From: Methylotenera sp.
Lineage (GTDB): Bacteria > Pseudomonadota > Gammaproteobacteria > Burkholderiales > Methylophilaceae
Assembly: GCA_009693255.1 (NCBI GenBank)
Contig: SHXQ01000004.1
Location: 1 to 64,000 of the forward strand
DNA: 64,000 bases
Direction: 5' to 3'
This document shows, one piece after another, positions 9,665 to 23,308 of this stretch. Position numbers and translations under genes: made by a program. How positions within the stretch are numbered: position 1 is the stretch's first letter; every line of letters begins with the position of its first letter. The notes beneath the pieces are model-generated. The model saw only the letters and a list, made by a program, of their open reading frames with translations. It did no database searches and had not been told where the DNA came from.

Positions 9665-10510
9665 ATGGCAATCTATGCAATCGGCGATATTCAAGGTTGT
9701 TACCATGCTTTTCAGGCATTGCTAGCACGTATTGAGTTTAATCCAGAAATCGATGAGCTTTGGCTGGTCGGCGATTTAATCAACCGTGGCAATGGCTCAC
9801 TTGAGGTGTTGCGTTGGTGTTATGCACATCAAGATAATTTAAAAGTGGTGTTGGGCAATCATGACTTACATGCTTTAGTTGTGGCGGCGGGTTTTGTTAG
9901 AGCACACAAAGGCGACACTCTAGATGCATTGCTTGAAGCAGATGATAAAGATGAGTTGCTAGCTTGGTTACGCCATCAACGACTGGCTTATCAAGCGGAA
10001 CCAACACCGGGCGAGCACTATTTAATGGTCCATGCTGGCTTACTACCACAATGGACAACGAAACAAACTATGCGCTATGCCGCTGAAGTAGAGGCTGCGC
10101 TACAAGGCGAAAGCCACTTAGATTTTTTAGCGCATATGTATGGTAACTTGCCCAATTGTTGGCATGATGACTTAACTGGCATTGACAGGCTACGGGTGAT
10201 TACCAACGCCATGACGCGATTACGCGTATGTACTTTACAAGGTAAAATGGAGTTTCAGTTCAAGGGGGAATTAGCCGATGTACCCCAAGACTTTACTCCT
10301 TGGTTTGATGTACCTAATCGTGCAGCGCAAGATGTACAAGTGATTTTTGGCCATTGGTCTGCAGTGGGACTGCAACAAAGATCCAATGTCTATGCGCTCG
10401 ATACCGGCTGTTTATGGGGCAGACAACTGACGGCGATGAACCTACAGACAAAAGAAATCATGCAAGTGCAGTCGCACCCGCTGGATAAGCCCCTCAAATT
10501 AAAGGGCTAA
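9665..10510 (+). CDS. apaH: Symmetrical bis(5'-nucleosyl)-tetraphosphatase ApaH
   Basis: AIGDIQGCYHAFQALL, GDLINRGNGSLEVLRW, LGNHDLHAL metallophosphatase motifs. Confidence 0.97.
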   Translation: MAIYAIGDIQGCYHAFQALLARIEFNPEIDELWLVGDLINRGNGSLEVLRWCYAHQDNLKVVLGNHDLHALVVAAGFVRAHKGDTLDALLEADDKDELLAWLRHQRLAYQAEPTPGEHYLMVHAGLLPQWTTKQTMRYAAEVEAALQGESHLDFLAHMYGNLPNCWHDDLTGIDRLRVITNAMTRLRVCTLQGKMEFQFKGELADVPQDFTPWFDVPNRAAQDVQVIFGHWSAVGLQQRSNVYALDTGCLWGRQLTAMNLQTKEIMQVQSHPLDKPLKLKG

Positions 10511-11299
10511 TTTTTTAGTAATGAGCGATTGAATGTATCGCGTTAAGTCACGGCGGTTTTTATCTTGATCGGCTAATTCAGCCGTAACAATTGGCGCCAA
10601 AAAATGTAGTTCAATGACAGGGTTTTTTTGTAATAGCACTTGTTGTATTGACTGCGCCATCGTTGTATCACCAGCATAAGCCACTTCGGTATTGATGCTG
10701 CCATCTGTACGCGGATAGCGAATGGCAACCGGCCAAATGATCGAGTGTGCGTCTATGGCAGACTGAATCACACTGCCTTTGAAGGGCATGATTGCAGTGC
10801 CGTCGGTGGTGGTGCCTTCTGGAAACAGACACAGGTTGTCACCGGCTTTTAAACTGCGTGTAGTGATGTCGACAATGCGTGTTGCATGATGTCGTTTGCC
10901 ACGCTCTAGAAAGATTGCATTGCCTTTGCTGACGAGGTAACCAAACACGGGCCAACTTTTAATGTCGGATTTAGCGAGAAAAGTGAGCGGTAAAATACTG
11001 TTGATAGCATGAATATCGACCCACGAAATATGGTTGGCGATAATCATGTGGTTACTTGCCGTTTTGTATGATGGCGGACTGTGACCCAAGCTAATCACGC
11101 TGACGTTAAAAATATCCAGTAAATGTGTACACCACCATTTAATGAGGCCTAATTTGAAATGCTTGGTGCCCACAGGAAACATTAAAGTTACGACAAACAA
11201 CCCAAATAAGGTATGCGCAGCCACGCGACTAATTCTAAAGTAGCGCGTGGCTTGGTTGGTACGTATATTATTTTTGTTAACTAATGGCAAAGTGTCCAT
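10499..11299 (-). CDS. 1-acylglycerol-3-phosphate acyltransferase-family protein (candidate OlsA, lyso-ornithine lipid acyltransferase)
   Basis: PlsC motifs NHISWVDIHAI and FPEGTTTDG; downstream of an OlsB-like gene. Confidence 0.85.
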   Translation of the reverse strand: MDTLPLVNKNNIRTNQATRYFRISRVAAHTLFGLFVVTLMFPVGTKHFKLGLIKWWCTHLLDIFNVSVISLGHSPPSYKTASNHMIIANHISWVDIHAINSILPLTFLAKSDIKSWPVFGYLVSKGNAIFLERGKRHHATRIVDITTRSLKAGDNLCLFPEGTTTDGTAIMPFKGSVIQSAIDAHSIIWPVAIRYPRTDGSINTEVAYAGDTTMAQSIQQVLLQKNPVIELHFLAPIVTAELADQDKNRRDLTRYIQSLITKKLAL

Positions 11300-11331: not shown

Positions 11332-12120
11332 TTATTTAAAAAAGTGTGCAGTGTATCTGGGGTTGATTCTAGATAGCGGTAACATTACCAGCATATCGGC
11401 CGTGTTGAAATAGGGATCCCATGCAGGTTCACCACAAATATAGGCGCCAAGACGTAAATAACCCTTAATTAAAGGCGGGCAGGCTACCTGCATATCGGTG
11501 CGTAGCGTGTCGTTGAGTAATGGATTGCGCGGAAAAACACGGTATTCAAGGGGAGATAAATAATCCTCTGCTAATCTGCGATACAAGCTTGCTGCGGCAT
11601 GGCCACCGTCAGACATACTCACGCTACCGCAACCTATCATGTATTCGTAGTTGTGAATTTGCATGTATTTAGCCAACCCAGCCCACAGCATAGTAATGGT
11701 GCCGCCATTACGGTAATTTTGGTGTACACAAGCACGGCCAACTTCTACGGTGCGGTCAAACAGATGCGTTAACCGGCTTAAATCAAACTCGCCAGCAGAG
11801 TAGTAACCGCCCGCTTCATTGGCGCTTGATGGGCTTAAAATGCGGTAGGTGCCTATCACTTGATTGGTATTGCTATCACGCACAATCAGGTGATCGCAAT
11901 ATTGATCAAAGCCATCAACATCCAAGGCGCCGGTGCCTAAAAGTTGCGCGCCCATTTCTACAGCAAATACTTTGTAGCGTAAGCGTTGCGCTTCTTCAAT
12001 TTCAACTTGGGTGCGTGCCAGACTAATGCTTAGGCGTCTTTGGTCGGGTACGGATAGGTCAAGGTGCTTACGGTTGTGTTCAATTGTATCACTGGTTGAT
12101 AGCAACTTTTTGCTTAACAT
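11332..12120 (-). CDS. GNAT-family ornithine-acyl-ACP N-acyltransferase-like protein (candidate OlsB)
   Basis: VEVGRACVHQNYRNGGTITMLWAGLAKYM, GCGSVSMSDGGHAAASLYRRL typical of OlsB/hemolysin-like family. Confidence 0.85.
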   Translation of the reverse strand: MLSKKLLSTSDTIEHNRKHLDLSVPDQRRLSISLARTQVEIEEAQRLRYKVFAVEMGAQLLGTGALDVDGFDQYCDHLIVRDSNTNQVIGTYRILSPSSANEAGGYYSAGEFDLSRLTHLFDRTVEVGRACVHQNYRNGGTITMLWAGLAKYMQIHNYEYMIGCGSVSMSDGGHAAASLYRRLAEDYLSPLEYRVFPRNPLLNDTLRTDMQVACPPLIKGYLRLGAYICGEPAWDPYFNTADMLVMLPLSRINPRYTAHFFK

Positions 12121-12167
12121 TGGATATCTCCTTTTAAATTAAGGAGACTTTAATGATTCAACATTAA

Positions 12168-12213
12168 ATTATAGTGACAGAAATATGACTGTTTATTGAC
12201 AGTATTTTTACAG
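12168..12213 (-). promoter_or_regulatory. Pho-box array (four 7-mers at 11-bp spacing) plus TATAAT -10 upstream of the olsBA-like operon
   Basis: Plus strand: attata-GTGACAG-aaat-ATGACTG-ttta-TTGACAG-tatt-TTTACAG; minus strand toward olsB: CTGTAAA aata CTGTCAA taaa CAGTCAT attt CTGTCAC TATAAT. Confidence 0.8.
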
Positions 12214-12300: not shown

Positions 12301-12753
12301 TTAATGCGATACGCGTGTTGTGCCGCCACTTTCTATTAAACGGACTTTATCGCCGGCTTTAAATTGCTCGTCAGCCTCTTGTACGATGGCAACTAAAGCA
12401 CCACCATCAACTTTCACGGTGATTTCTAAGGCGTCTTTGCGCGTTAGTCCTTCTTCAAGGGCTGAGCCCGCCAGCCCACCCACTACAGCGCCTATCACGG
12501 CGCCAACGATATTGCCATCACCATTGCCAAGCGAGCTGCCCGCAACGCCGCCAACAGCTGCACCTGCTACTGTGCCTATCGGTGTTTTAGTGCCTTCAAG
12601 TTTTACTTGGCGCACACTTTCTACTACGCCTGTTTTAACGGTTTGCACTCTGCGCGCTTCATCGCGACTGTAAACGGCGCCAGAGTTAGAGCTGGCGCAA
12701 GCGCCGAGCACTAAGCTGAGTAAGCCTATGGTCAATAATTGTGTCGTTTTCAT
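12301..12753 (-). CDS. Glycine-zipper 2TM outer-membrane lipoprotein (SlyB/Pcp family)
   Basis: Lipobox LGAC; GTVAGAAVGGVAGSSLGNGDGNIVGAVIGAVVGGLAGSALEE. Confidence 0.9.
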   Translation of the reverse strand: MKTTQLLTIGLLSLVLGACASSNSGAVYSRDEARRVQTVKTGVVESVRQVKLEGTKTPIGTVAGAAVGGVAGSSLGNGDGNIVGAVIGAVVGGLAGSALEEGLTRKDALEITVKVDGGALVAIVQEADEQFKAGDKVRLIESGGTTRVSH

Positions 12754-16417: not shown

Positions 16418-19400
16418 ATGAACGCACCTCTACCTAGCGATATTCAGAACGCAGAGTCGATACCTGCTTCGCGCTTGCGCGAAATTCCTTACAATTACAC
16501 CTCATTTTCAGACCGTGAAATCGTCATCCGCTTCTTAGGGGAAGATATTTGGCAGGCGTTAAATGAATTGCGCAGTGAGCGTAAAACGGGTCGTAGTGCA
16601 CGCATGTTGTTTGAGGTGTTGGGTGATTTGTGGGTGGTCTCTAGGAACCCTTACTTGCAAGATGATTTGCTGGGAAATCCAAAGCGCCGCAAAGCTTTAA
16701 TTGACGCCTTGCAGCATCGTATTGCCGCCATTGACGAGCGTAATGCGGGCGGTACGTCTAATGCAAAAGTACAGAAAATGGTGGTCGCTGCCCAGCAGGC
16801 GGTGGATAAATTTGCCGAAGATTTCCGTCAAACTTATGATTTGCGTAAGAAAGCATTGAGTAAGTTAAGCAAAATTACCCGAAAAGATAACGTGCAGTTT
16901 GATGGATTAGCCAGAGTTTCGCACGTGACTGATGCAACCGACTGGCGTGTTGAATATCCGTTTGTGGTGCTGAACCCCGATAATGAAAAAGAAATTGCCG
17001 CATTGGTGCGTGCCTGTATTGAGTTAGGGCTCACTGTGATTCCGCGTGGTGGTGGTACCGGCTATACCGGTGGAGCGATCCCGCTCACGCCTATGTCGGC
17101 TGTAATTAACACCGAAAAGTTAGATCGACATACCGGCGTACAAATGCGCACACTGCCTGGCGTGGCTAGGCAAGTGGCCACCATTGAATGTGGCGCAGGG
17201 GTAGTGACGCGTCGTGCAATGGAAGCGGCAAGCGATGCTGGTTTAGAGTTTGCTTGCGATCCAACTAGCGCTGATGCGAGTTGTATTGGTGGTAACGTGG
17301 CCATGAATGCCGGCGGCAAAAAAGCCGTGCTATGGGGTACTGCCCTAGATAATCTCGCCTCTTGGCGCATGGTGACGCCAGATGCACAGTGGCTTGAAGT
17401 CGAACGCTTAGATCACAACTTGGGAAAAATTCATGATATAGCGATGGCGCGCTTTAAAATAAGCCGTTACGACATGGATATGAAAACCTTGTTAGGTGAG
17501 CCCGAAATATTAGAAATTGCTGGGCCGAGCTTTCGTAAAGTCGGCTTAGGTAAAGATGTCACGGATAAATTTCTATCTGGCTTACCTGGCATACAAAAAG
17601 AGGGCTGTGATGGCTTAATTACCAGCGCTACCTTTATTCTGCACCGCATGCCTAAGCATGTGCGTACGGTTGCATTAGAGTTTTTTGGTAATGTTTCACG
17701 CGCGGTGCCCGCCATCGTCGAGATAAAAGACTACTTAGATGCCACGGCAAAAAAAGACCCCTTAGTGCTGATGGCAGGCTTAGAGCACATGGATGAGCGC
17801 TATATTAAAGCGGTGGGCTATGCCACTAAAGCGGCACGTCAACAGCGCCCCAAAATGGTATTGATCGCTGATATTGCTTCTGATGATGAAAACGCGGTAG
17901 GCGAAGCTGCGTCGCACATCGTGCGGTTATGTAACGCCCGTGACGGTGAGGGCTTTATTGCGGTGTCGCAAGAGGCGCGCAAAAAATTCTGGTTGGATCG
18001 CGCCCGTACAGCGGCCATTGCCAAACACACCAATGCATTTAAAATCAATGAAGATGTGGTGATTCCATTGCCGCGCTTAGGCGATTATTCTGATGGAATT
18101 GAGCGCATTAATATCGAGCTTTCGATTCAAAATAAACTCAAGTTGCTGGATGCTTTAGAAGTCTTTATGCAGGGCGATTTGCCTTTGCAAGCGGATGAAG
18201 ATGGTAATGCGGATGAGCAAATGGTGAAATCCAAGCAAGCGATGGCGCTACAGCTATTAAGCGAGCTGCGCGCACGTTGGAGTTTAATTTTAAATCATTT
18301 AGATGCCCCAATCTCTGTGCTTGCCTCAAGTCTTGGTGACGCGACCAGTCAACTTAGTCAATACGAGAATGTATTCCGTGCCGTGCAATCTTACGATTTA
18401 CGCATTTCTTGGAAGCGTGAACTTAAGCGGCCAATCGCCGATATTTTTGCTGGGCGCGAGTATCAGAAAATACTTGATCATTGTGATGAGATTCACAAAA
18501 CCGTACTTAAAGGTCGCGTATTCATTGCCTTGCACATGCATGCAGGTGACGGCAATGTGCATACCAACATTCCGGTCAATTCTGATGATTACCAGATGAT
18601 GCACGCCGCACACGACGCTGTGGCGCGGGTTATGGCGCTGGCAAAAGGTTTGGGTGGCGTGATTTCAGGTGAGCATGGTATTGGTATTACCAAAATGGAA
18701 TTTGTGGAGGCCTCTACTATTGAGGCGTTTACTAAGTACAAAAATAAAGTAGACCCCAACGGTCACTTTAATAAAGGTAAGCTATTGGCAGGGTCTGGCC
18801 TAGAAAATGCTTATACCCCCAGCTTTGGCTTACTTGAGCAAGAATCTATCATCATGGAGCAATCTGCCATAGGTGAGATTGCAGACTCGATTAGTGATTG
18901 TTTGCGTTGTGGTAAATGTAAACCGGTGTGTACAACGCATGTGCCACGGGCAAACTTGCTGTATAGCCCGCGCAACAAAATCTTAGGCACATCATTGTTG
19001 ATTGAAGCCTTTTTATATGAAGAGCAAACGCGGCGCGGCATTTCGCTCAAACATTTTGATGAGTTTAATGATGTCGCCGATCATTGTACGGTCTGTCATA
19101 AATGCCTAAATCCGTGCCCGGTGGATATTGATTTTGGTGATGTTTCTGTTGCCATGCGTAATTTTTTACGCGAGCAAGGTAAAAAACAATTCAACCCAGG
19201 CACGGCGTTGGGGATGGCTTTTTTGAATGCAACTGACCCTGCAACGATAAAGCTACTTCGCACTTTCATGGTTGGCATTGGCTATAAAGCGCAAGGTTTT
19301 GCACACAGTTTGGCTAAAAAGTTTGGCTTGCTAAAAGATAAAATTAGACCGCCGGCAACCGTAGGTAAACCTAATATTCAAGCGCAGGTCATTCATTTCA

Positions 19401-20308
19401 TTAACCGACCTATGCCGAAAAAAATGCCGACTAAAACGTCACGGGCATTATTGGGTATAGAGGATGACCGCATGATTCCGGTCATCCGTAATCCGCAAAA
19501 AGTGACGGAATATTCTGAGGCGGTATTCTACTTTCCGGGTTGTGGATCGGAGCGTTTGTTCTCAAATGTGGGCTTAGCCACACAAGCGATGTTGTATGAA
19601 GTAGGCGCTATTACGGTGCTGCCACCCGGCTATTTATGTTGTGGTTACCCACAAACGGCGAGTGGCAATCATGATAAAGGCCAAGAAATCACCACAGACA
19701 ACCGTGTGCTGTTCCACCGCGTGGCCAATACGCTCAATTACCTCGACATCAAGACGGTCATTGTGTCTTGCGGCACTTGTATGGATCAGCTGCAAAGATA
19801 TGAATTCGAGAAAATATTTCCGGGTTGCAGATTGTTGGACATACACGAATATCTCATGGAAAAAGACATGAAGCTCAGCGGCATTACTGGGACTAAGTAT
19901 ATGTACCACGACCCATGCCATACGCCGATGAAGACTTACAAGCCGCTGGAAGTGACCAACAAGCTTATGGGGCAAGACGTGCAATTGAACGATCGTTGCT
20001 GTGGCGAAGCCGGTACGTTTGCGGCAGCGCGCCCAGATATTGCCACGCAGGTAAAAATGCGTAAGCAAGAAGAGTTGGAAAAAGGCATGGATAAGCTAGG
20101 TCTAACGGTAGGTGCGCCAGAACAGAAAGTGAAAATTCTGACTTCCTGCCCAAGTTGCTTGCAAGGATTAGCGCGCTATGGCGAAGATACCGGAATTGAA
20201 GCGGATTATATTGTGGTTGAAATGGCGAAGCATATTCTGGGTGAAAATTGGATGCAAGAGTATGTGGAGCGCGTGAATAAGGGTGGTATTGAGAAGGTGC
20301 TATTGTAG
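16418..20308 (+). CDS. FAD-linked oxidase / 4Fe-4S / CCG-domain fusion (D-lactate dehydrogenase/GlcD-like, DUF3683 type)
   Basis: 1296 aa; FAD-binding [15 protein letters not shown], Fe-[12 protein letters not shown] and [13 protein letters not shown]-terminal CCG-type motifs ([44 protein letters not shown]). Confidence 0.9.
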
Positions 20309-20350: not shown

Positions 20351-21067
20351 CTAAAAAGGCAAGAATATAGCCGTTGCCAAATTTTGCATCACCCGTGCAA
20401 TAAGCCGTTCAGATTTTTCTGCTAAAGTAATGGCATATAAGTCGGTACGGCCTATCATCTTGCCAAACTCACGCTCAAAAGATAAATTCCTATCTTTATC
20501 GTTGATTTCATTGCTTAGTAAATAGAGTGTCCCCGCTTCATCGCGCGCGTTCGACAGTTTCCATGCCGCTATTTCTATGTTTCTAGCGACGTTATAGATA
20601 TGTTGTGGGTTTACTGTGTCGGTGAGGTAAAAGTCTCTTTTACCGTCATGCGCTTGCAGTAGCATTGTTTGTAGCCCAACAATAAAAGGCAGCACGCGAT
20701 CGCCACTATATTCAGGCTTAAACGCTAAGAAGATAGCTTCAGTGCCTTGTTTATTATCAATCTCTTTAAATAAATTGTGATGTTGTTGTTCGCCATCAAT
20801 AACCCATATCGCCATTTTCTCGGCATTATCAGAGGTGCTTTTTGCCAGTTCGTGCGGGTTGCGCTTGTAGAGCTTGATCATTAAATGACGCAAACTTTGC
20901 ATGTTTTCTGATATTTCAACATCAGTCATGCGGTCAAAATCTCCCTTGGCTAATTGGTTACCCGAACTTTTATCACTACGCTCGGGAACAGGTTTATTTT
21001 CTACTGGGCTATTGAGTGCACAGGCGACTAAGCCGCCTGCCATTAAAAGGGTAACAATGATTCTCAT
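20351..21067 (-). CDS. Conserved-looking lipoprotein of unknown function overlapping phoR
   Basis: Lipobox GGLVACAL; start overlaps the phoR stop by 4 nt. Confidence 0.75.
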   Translation of the reverse strand: MRIIVTLLMAGGLVACALNSPVENKPVPERSDKSSGNQLAKGDFDRMTDVEISENMQSLRHLMIKLYKRNPHELAKSTSDNAEKMAIWVIDGEQQHHNLFKEIDNKQGTEAIFLAFKPEYSGDRVLPFIVGLQTMLLQAHDGKRDFYLTDTVNPQHIYNVARNIEIAAWKLSNARDEAGTLYLLSNEINDKDRNLSFEREFGKMIGRTDLYAITLAEKSERLIARVMQNLATAIFLPF

Positions 21068-22407
21068 GTTGTGGTGGCCAATGCAACGTGCACAATTCTT
21101 GATTTAGGAAATACCGCGCTAAAGGTGCTACCCAAACCTAATCTACTCGAGATTTCCAGCTTGGCTTGATGGCGAATGAGAATATGCTTAACGATAGATA
21201 GCCCTAGGCCGGTGCCGCCAGTTTCTCGACTACGGCTTCTATCGACACGATAAAAGCGCTCGGTAAGGCGCTCAATATGTTGCAATTCAATGCCAATGCC
21301 GGTGTCGCGCACTGAGAATACAGCTTCCCCATCACGTAAGCCCCAGCTAATAAATATCTCACCGTGCCCCTTGGTTTTATTTTCTGGGGTGTAACGTATT
21401 GCATTACTCACTAAATTGCTAAAGGCACTACGCAGTTCATCAATTGCACCGCTTAAGTTGAGTGTAGCGTCGACATCAAGGTGAATTTTGTGTTTGGTCT
21501 TTTTTAGCCCTTGGCTTAAACCTATGGCATCGTTTTGTACTGCTTCTAACAATTGGGCAATATCAATCTCGCTATCGTCAGGATTGCCGGTATTGCTTTC
21601 TATGGTCGACAGGGTGAGTAAATCTTCAATAATTCGGCGCATGCGTATGGTTTGTTCTTCCATCAGGGCAAAGTAGTGCTTCAGGCTTGCTGGTACCGCA
21701 CCATCCATATCGCTAAGGGTTTCTAAGAACCCACCCACTACCGTTAATGGGGTGCGTAGCTCATGTGAAACGTTGGCAATAAAATCACGGCGCATGATAT
21801 CTACTTTTTCGAGTTGCGTCATATCTCGACTAATTAATAATTTTTGTTGGTTAGCGAAGGGGACGAGCTGAAGTTCCAGAATCAATTCAGGATTTCGCCA
21901 AGACTGTAGTTTAAAAGGGAGGTCGTATTCGCCGTTATATAAGTAGGCAATAAAATGGCTGTCACGAATTAAGTTGACGATAGGTAGGTTTTTATCGGTA
22001 GTTAAATTAAGGCCAAGCTGCTTTTCCGCATTCGGTGTGCACCATTCAATAGCGTTGCCAGCACTGAGTATCACCAAGCCATCTGGCATGGCACTGGTGG
22101 CAAGGTTAAAAAGTTCTAATGACGAATTTAATTTGGTCTGGATTAACTTGTTATTACGCTCATATTTCAGGAGCATAGTAAAAATATCTTCCCATAAACC
22201 AAACCCTTCAGGGATTACTTTAAGATCGGGGGCTTTAAACCAGATTCGTAATTGGTGAAGCCAAAAAATATGGCTGCTGAGATAGAGTAAAAGGCCGGTA
22301 GAAAACACCAGCAATGCCGCTGTCGCGCCACTGATTAGCCATAAAAAGAGACTAATGACAATAAGTGCGCAAACAAATAAGCCAGCTTTCCAACGAATAT
22401 CTAGCAC
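21064..22407 (-). CDS. phoR: Phosphate regulon sensor histidine kinase PhoR
   Basis: FIANVSHELRTPLTVVGGFLETL, NLVSNAIRYTP, GTGLGLSIVKHIL; adjacent to phoB. Confidence 0.92.
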   Translation of the reverse strand: MLDIRWKAGLFVCALIVISLFLWLISGATAALLVFSTGLLLYLSSHIFWLHQLRIWFKAPDLKVIPEGFGLWEDIFTMLLKYERNNKLIQTKLNSSLELFNLATSAMPDGLVILSAGNAIEWCTPNAEKQLGLNLTTDKNLPIVNLIRDSHFIAYLYNGEYDLPFKLQSWRNPELILELQLVPFANQQKLLISRDMTQLEKVDIMRRDFIANVSHELRTPLTVVGGFLETLSDMDGAVPASLKHYFALMEEQTIRMRRIIEDLLTLSTIESNTGNPDDSEIDIAQLLEAVQNDAIGLSQGLKKTKHKIHLDVDATLNLSGAIDELRSAFSNLVSNAIRYTPENKTKGHGEIFISWGLRDGEAVFSVRDTGIGIELQHIERLTERFYRVDRSRSRETGGTGLGLSIVKHILIRHQAKLEISSRLGLGSTFSAVFPKSRIVHVALATTT

Positions 22408-22498: not shown

Positions 22499-23191
22499 TT
22501 AATCATTTCTATTTGATAATCGGTAACCAGCGCCGCGCACAGTTTGAATCAAATCCTCGTGACCTGAAAGGGACAGTGCGTTACGTAAACGCCGAATGTG
22601 CACATCTACGGTACGGTCTTCAACAAATACGCGGTCGCCCCATACTTTGTCCAATAATTGGCTACGTGTATGCACGCGCTCGGCATTAGTCATGAAAAAA
22701 TGCAATAACCTAAATTCGGTTGGACCTAAATCGAGGGTTTTTTGGTTGCCAGTCACGCGATGTGTCGTTGGGTCTAAGCATAAGCCATTGACTTCAATCG
22801 GATCGTCAGTCATTTGTGGCGCGCGACGGCGGAGTACCGCCTTAATTCTAGCGTTAAGTTCACGCGGACTGAATGGCTTGGTGACATAGTCATCAGCCCC
22901 AACTTCTAAGCCGCGAACTTTATCGTATTCATCACCCCTTGCGGTGAGCATAATAATGGGAATGGATTTTGTGTGCGTATCAGATTTCAATTTACGCGCA
23001 AATTCCAAGCCATTCATGCCCGGCAGCATCCAATCTAACAAAATTAAATCAGGAATAGTTTCACGCATCAAGTTTTGCGCAATCTCCACACTGAGTGCCC
23101 GTATGGCATTGTGCCCAGCTTGTGTAATATTAAGGGCAAGCAACTCTTGAATTGCTGGCTCATCTTCAACAACGAGTATATTGGCTGGCAT
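22499..23191 (-). CDS. phoB: Phosphate regulon response regulator PhoB
   Basis: Receiver (LILLDWMLPGMNGLEFARKLK) plus winged HTH (LGPTEFRLLHFFM...VWGDRVFVEDRTVDVHIRRLR). Confidence 0.95.
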   Translation of the reverse strand: MPANILVVEDEPAIQELLALNITQAGHNAIRALSVEIAQNLMRETIPDLILLDWMLPGMNGLEFARKLKSDTHTKSIPIIMLTARGDEYDKVRGLEVGADDYVTKPFSPRELNARIKAVLRRRAPQMTDDPIEVNGLCLDPTTHRVTGNQKTLDLGPTEFRLLHFFMTNAERVHTRSQLLDKVWGDRVFVEDRTVDVHIRRLRNALSLSGHEDLIQTVRGAGYRLSNRND

Positions 23192-23248
23192 ATTTTCCCT
23201 TATGTCACTTCATCTACATTTTATAAGAAGTGAGTTTATGGCCTAAAT

Positions 23249-23266
23249 GTGAAATATTTATGACAA
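23249..23266 (-). promoter_or_regulatory. Candidate Pho box upstream of phoB
   Basis: Minus strand TTGTCAT-AAAT-ATTTCAC vs CTGTCAT-AAAT-CTGTCAC, 15/18 identical. Confidence 0.5.
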
Positions 23267-23308
23267 ATATTAAATGCATGCATAAGTAAATTGCCATTTT
23301 TTTTTATT

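Follow-up and report, generated by a model that had tools for sequence, protein, structure and literature searches.

The −10 element and discriminator of the promoter preceding an olsB-like gene contain a sequence complementary to the ribosome-binding site (RBS) of that gene, and the two complementary arms covary across olsB promoters. The region lies on the minus strand of a 64,000-nucleotide (nt) stretch of DNA (hereafter referred to as the window), and reads CTGTAAAAATACTGTCAATAAACAGTCATATTTCTGTCACTATAATTTAATGTTGAATCATTAAAGTCTCCTTAATTTAAAAGGAGATATCCAATG across an array of Pho units. We consider a PhoB promoter combined with a translational lock on read-through RNA to be the best explanation of the olsB region, with a probability of roughly 63%. 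In the proposed mechanism, olsBA would be transcribed from a PhoB-dependent promoter comprising two tandem Pho boxes, a 10-base pair (bp) spacer and the −10 element TAAAGT; phosphorylated PhoB bound at 12202–12163 would replace the −35 element, and the mRNA would start at about 12140, with a short leader, an open Shine–Dalgarno site and no hairpin. The −10/discriminator DNA would double as the complement of the olsB Shine–Dalgarno site, and RNA arriving from upstream, chiefly by read-through from a lipoprotein gene, would carry both arms, form the hairpin and escape translation. Such a promoter would place transcription under phosphate control and, at the same time, passively lock leaky transcripts against translation. 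On balance, the −10/discriminator probably encodes the anti-Shine–Dalgarno strand of this lock, covarying order-wide and partly beyond, and gates both the transcription and the translation of olsB.

The olsBA locus and its Pho-unit array

The window belongs to a 1.4-Mb genome assembly of 24 contigs, with Methylotenera (Methylophilaceae, Burkholderiales) as its closest named relatives, and contains the following genes that bear on the analysis:

10499–11299, minus strand: olsA-like lyso-ornithine-lipid O-acyltransferase gene (PF01553), directly downstream of the olsB-like gene
11332–12120, minus strand: olsB-like gene (L-ornithine N-alpha-acyltransferase family), 262 residues (Pfam PF13444, E = 1.3e-35)
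12301–12753, minus strand: co-directional glycine-zipper lipoprotein gene (PF05433), the likely source of read-through
21064–22407, minus strand: phoR (TIGR02966, 395.1 bits; cut-off 334.2)
22499–23191, minus strand: phoB (TIGR02154, 349.9 bits; cut-off 296.2)

The olsB-like gene has its top NCBIfam matches in two OlsB equivalogs, at 178.6 and 162.4 bits and so short of the curated cut-offs of 320 and 350, and the olsA-like gene has its own in OlsA models, also under cut-off; the gene order fits ornithine lipid synthesis by OlsB and OlsA, with the NCBIfam scores below the curated thresholds. The olsA-like gene is convergent with an apaH-like phosphoesterase gene (9665–10510, plus strand), with which it overlaps by 12 bp (10499–10510). 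Elsewhere in the window, 16418–20308 encodes a 1,296-residue protein in which a GlcD-like FAD-binding oxidase is fused to an iron–sulfur subunit.

The initial annotation had proposed four Pho 7-mers in front of olsB, followed by TATAAT as the −10 element. The four 7-mers are present at the claimed positions in an 11-bp phase, and they form the best array in the window, matching CTGTCA[TC] at 24 of 28 positions, a score reached in none of 200 simulated windows (mean of the maxima 18.8, highest 22). A scan with a simple Pho pattern yielded 81 matches, as compared with 41 for a control pattern, a mild enrichment. We then gathered the olsB upstream regions of this genus, family and order (216 distinct sequences) and read them from a common anchor. 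The 11-bp phasing is kept across these regions, and the comparison of more than 200 sequences shifts the array one unit further downstream, to 12202–12163, correcting the register first proposed. The uppermost unit of the original set, CTGTAAA (12207–12213, minus strand), is not conserved; L021 and L022, the two closest relatives, are the only ones in which it is nearly preserved. The computed positions of the conserved elements, together with the start that they predict, are as follows:

12196–12202, minus strand: Pho unit A, CTGTCAA, kept in the genus and order at the 11-bp phase
12185–12191, minus strand: Pho unit B, CAGTCAT (CRGTCAT in the genus), kept in the genus and order at the 11-bp phase
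12174–12180, minus strand: Pho unit C, CTGTCAC, kept in the genus and order at the 11-bp phase
12163–12169, minus strand: Pho unit D, ATTTAAT, position kept at the 11-bp phase
12147–12152, minus strand: conserved −10 element TAAAGT, 10 bp past unit D, assigned by conservation and PhoB-type spacing
12140, minus strand: predicted transcription start (A), 7 nt past the −10 element, placed by the standard −10-to-start spacing

Unit D is degenerate in the window, and many relatives are closer to the consensus at this position (for example, CTGTCAC or CCGTCAT). The genus pattern reads CTGTCAA-taaa-CRGTCAT-attt-CTGTCAY-nnnn-TTTAAT/TTCAC, followed by 10 bp, TAAAGT (or TATAGT or TACACT) and then CTCC.

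Of 105 non-redundant olsB promoters, 96 have a TANNNT exactly 10 or 21 bp past their best pair of units. Because the promoters had been preselected by a score to which the −10 element contributes, this proportion is somewhat flattered, although the raw sequences agree with it. This count uses an anchor defined by the units only, because the base composition around the −10 element is partly circular when the anchor itself scores TANNNT. The same 10-bp spacing occurs upstream of phoB, whose Pho box reads TTGTCAT-4-ATTTCAC-10-TAAACT, and in front of the pstS-like gene, both in this genome and in its genus. The spacing shared by the three genes and the frequency of TANNNT argue that the olsB promoter is of the PhoB type, with TAAAGT at 12152–12147 as its −10 element and a start predicted at about 12140. 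The phoB box (23191–23270) points to autoregulation.

These results bear on the direct control of olsB by PhoB, which the initial annotation had predicted. The olsB promoter has at least two CTGTCAT-like units at 11 bp and a −10 element about 10 bp past the last unit, and the assignments of phoB and phoR in this genome were confirmed, both models scoring over their cut-offs. PhoB probably binds the olsB array and, since phoB and the pstS-like gene share its box geometry, direct control of olsB is very likely. The prediction is strongly supported by the units and the TANNNT at 10 bp kept in the genus and order, whereas the −10 element, register and geometry attached to it were wrong.

A plain PhoB promoter with TATAAT (12168–12173, minus strand) as the −10 element, in which any inverted repeat downstream would be incidental, is very unlikely. 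TATAAT is a perfect hexamer adjoining the array, but it is conserved only in the nearest relatives, being kept solely in L022, as CATAAT; it overlaps unit D and the following linker, where the other relatives differ in sequence. The hexamer also implies a geometry other than the 10-bp gap that olsB, phoB and pstS share within this group, and the covariation described below argues against an incidental repeat. The hexamer was described as having no recognizable −35 element, which is debatable, as TAAACA-16 bp-TATAAT (12168–12195, minus strand) agrees with the sigma-70 consensus in 10 of its 12 hexamer bases. It may represent a species-specific sigma-70 promoter whose RNA, beginning before the 5′ arm, would be locked.

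Covariation between the promoter and the ribosome-binding site

No other feature of the region is as unusual as the inverted repeat that covers the olsB RBS, which the initial annotation overlooked. The arms of the repeat are:

12141–12148, minus strand: 5′ arm GTCTCCTT, the end of the −10 element plus the discriminator, complementary to the RBS and supported by covariation tests
12126–12133, minus strand: 3′ arm AAGGAGAT, which contains the Shine–Dalgarno sequence and pairs with the 5′ arm

The stem comprises seven Watson–Crick pairs and one outer G–U pair. In other genomes, arms that differ in sequence are nevertheless complementary, as in TAACATCTCTC/GAGAGATGTTA (L320), TACCATCTCTCC/GGAGAGATGGTA (L326) and CTTTCCTGTT/AACAGGAAAG (L345). 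Further complementary pairs are AAGAATCCTC/GAGGATTCTT (L078), GCCCTCGTT/AACGAGGGC (L081), GTTTCACC/GGTGAAAC (L071) and CTGTGCATTCCATT/AATGGAGTGCACAG (L204). Some species have no good stem (for example, L076, L221 and L332).

We compared the best stem formed by the 5′ and 3′ windows of each genome with the stems obtained when the windows were exchanged between genomes, with start codons and promoters picked by Shine–Dalgarno and Pho-box scores and never by complementarity. The stem score was 17.0 for own arms and 11.9 for swapped arms (z = 20; 0 of 20,000 permutations), and the computed covariation was retained with GC-matched swaps (z = 15.9) and with shuffled 5′ arms (z = 23.3). The signal is present in Methylophilaceae alone (z = 8.8), in other Burkholderiales (z = 16.9) and, for 20 promoters, outside Burkholderiales (z = 5.1). 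Unbroken Watson–Crick stems of at least 8 pairs occur in 20% of olsB leaders, as compared with 0.3% of shuffled arms. By contrast, control promoters of pstS, with the same Pho box and spacing, gave arm-swap z values of about 0 in the genus (n = 11) and the order (n = 13), so that, of the genes tested, olsB alone shows the covariation of the RBS arm.

Two accounts of the repeat are opposed by these data. Pyrimidine-rich discriminators might pair with any purine-rich Shine–Dalgarno site by chance or composition, and the CTCC/GGAG pair found throughout the genus fits such an origin; however, the effect survives all three randomizations, is lacking at pstS and, in AAGAATCCTC/GAGGATTCTT and GCCCTCGTT/AACGAGGGC, involves stems that reach past the Shine–Dalgarno core. 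Chance, the least probable of the explanations weighed, is refuted for the family as a whole, although it could still apply to individual species whose stems are short. Alternatively, the repeat might act as DNA, as an operator for a second dimeric regulator or as a cruciform, and its location across the −10 element would suit a repressor. However, 94 different discriminator hexamers occur among the 105 olsB promoters, and it is the complementarity, rather than the sequence, that is kept; a sequence-specific regulator would not tolerate such variation, which makes this account highly improbable.

Several individual promoters show other features. In olsB promoters of the Methylotenera versatilis type (L317–L336), the stem takes in much or all of the −10 element and reaches the start codon, with up to 11–12 pairs, so that the bases preceding the ATG covary with the −10 hexamer itself. 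In three large genomes of one family (L226, L230 and L253; family f31), the hairpins are displaced or weak and the RBS seems free, a state that could relate to constitutive ornithine-lipid synthesis. The pstS-like promoter of the window's genome (G000:C1:10357-10372, L003) has RBS-complementary arms (TCACCTC/GAGGTGA), although the pstS family lacks covariation. In the same genome, CACTTC/GAAGTG follows the phoB −10 element; it does not cover the RBS and is absent from the relatives shown.

Predicted transcript start, RBS accessibility and possible read-through

With the 5′ window restricted to the bases upstream of position +7 after the −10 element, the covariation remained strong (z = 13.0), whereas the bases at +7 to +16, where the transcript is predicted to start, showed no signal (z = 0.4). 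A sliding scan peaked in windows starting between 4 and 0 nt before the end of the −10 element (4 nt before to 0 nt after), and faded upstream of about −18. The computed signal is limited to the side predicted to be untranscribed, and the 5′ arm thus lies outside the transcript of the PhoB promoter, as judged from the start that the −10 element predicts. Since this arm would not be transcribed from the PhoB promoter, the hairpin would form only in RNA from further upstream. A few 5′ arms extend past +7, and part of the stem could persist in the PhoB transcripts of these promoters.

Structure prediction is consistent with this arrangement. The predicted cost of opening the Shine–Dalgarno site of the window is 10.2 kcal/mol in the long RNA and 2.6 kcal/mol in the PhoB transcript, and its predicted mean unpaired probability is 0.016 and 0.475, respectively. 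The difference in opening cost has a median of 4.5 kcal/mol over the 105 olsB promoters, as compared with 2.0 kcal/mol for pstS, the longer RNA being generally more structured.

The hairpin could instead be present in every olsB mRNA, as a conventional 5′ leader element (an mRNA-stabilizing stem, a thermosensor or a regulator site), if transcripts began before the 5′ arm. In favour of this reading, the covariation of the arms resembles that of an RNA helix, and TAAACA-16 bp-TATAAT, a fair sigma-70 promoter of this genome, would initiate RNA ahead of the arm. We nevertheless regard this explanation as unlikely, because TATAAT is not conserved, the −10 element is found at PhoB spacing in most promoters, and the arm either shares bases with this element or comes directly after it, sometimes taking in most of it (L320 and L326). 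In addition, the complementarity ends at the predicted start.

For the proposed lock on read-through RNA, the gene adjoining olsB on its upstream side is the relevant source. The glycine-zipper lipoprotein gene occupies this position in 70 of 78 distinct Methylophilaceae loci, and no terminator was detected between it and olsB in the window; we infer that transcripts read through into olsB and that the hairpin would block their translation in cells. In Methylophilaceae, the hairpin energy is −7.5 kcal/mol at loci with an intervening intrinsic terminator (27 loci) and −12.5 kcal/mol at those without (43 loci; p = 1.7e-6), and a hairpin that is weaker behind a terminator is expected if it guards against read-through from the lipoprotein gene. 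The comparison was made in this family because, across all families, random open frames in GC-rich genomes made it too noisy. The association holds in phylogenetic generalized least squares with lambda fitted (energy, p = 1.2e-4; stem score, p = 1.6e-4); under strict Brownian motion, it gives p = 0.0014 for energy and p = 0.08 for stem score. Among 12 independent sister pairs, the expected direction prevailed by 6 to 4 (stem) and in 7 of 12 (energy), neither being significant. Collectively, the terminator association suggests a guard against read-through, as supporting rather than decisive evidence.

Comparison with known systems

PhoB promoters of the Escherichia coli pstS and phoA type have 7-mers in an 11-bp phase, a −10 element about 10 bp past the last unit and a weak or absent −35 element. 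The olsB promoter resembles them in the phasing of its units and the spacing of its −10 element, whereas it differs in having four units, the last of which is degenerate, and a −10/discriminator region that complements the RBS.

Control of olsB by PhoB is the ordinary part of our findings. Pho boxes were already predicted before olsB in 43 genomes of Burkholderia sensu lato, in one of which ornithine lipids were reported, as data not shown, to replace phospholipids at low phosphate (PMC7814305), and a predicted Pho box at olsB in Acinetobacter has genetic support from a phoR mutant (PMC11828411). The gene and the regulator are the same here; our results extend the prediction to Methylophilaceae, place the −10 element and add the covariation of the arms. 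Neither PMC7814305 nor PMC11828411 mentions a hairpin at olsB (0 occurrences of the word).

The new part is the covarying RBS complement embedded in the promoter, which we think is best explained, with the same confidence as above, as a lock on read-through transcripts. Titles and abstracts in the open-licence literature, which offers partial coverage and thus weak evidence, yielded no precedent for such a lock at a conserved chromosomal gene. If the explanation is correct, the region represents a translational insulator built into a promoter that drives a chromosomal metabolic gene, with selection acting on it in more than 100 genomes, and would provide compact genomes with a general way to silence an inducible gene behind a transcribed neighbour without a terminator. 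Its signature, complementarity that ends at the transcription start, can be searched for in other regulons. A lock on read-through RNA would also mean that olsB RNA does not equal OlsB protein at high phosphate, and expression studies could consequently be misled.

The logic of the proposed lock is shared with fold-back inhibition in IS10 and IS50, in which the RBS is sequestered in impinging transcripts, guarding the gene from outside transcription; these systems protect the transposase of a mobile element, whereas olsB is a metabolic gene of the host. In phage T4, the late genes I-TevI, segB, soc and e hide their RBS only in transcripts from upstream promoters, and the proximal promoter starts inside the hairpin, giving a transcript that is translated (PMC2988022). 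The olsB RBS is likewise predicted to be paired in the long RNA and free in the proximal RNA, with the 5′ arm upstream of the predicted start, and the compensatory change between its arms matches the conservation of pairing expected of a T4-type system. Unlike the phage genes, which are under temporal control, olsB is a chromosomal lipid gene under probable phosphate control, and its arrangement is conserved across an order.
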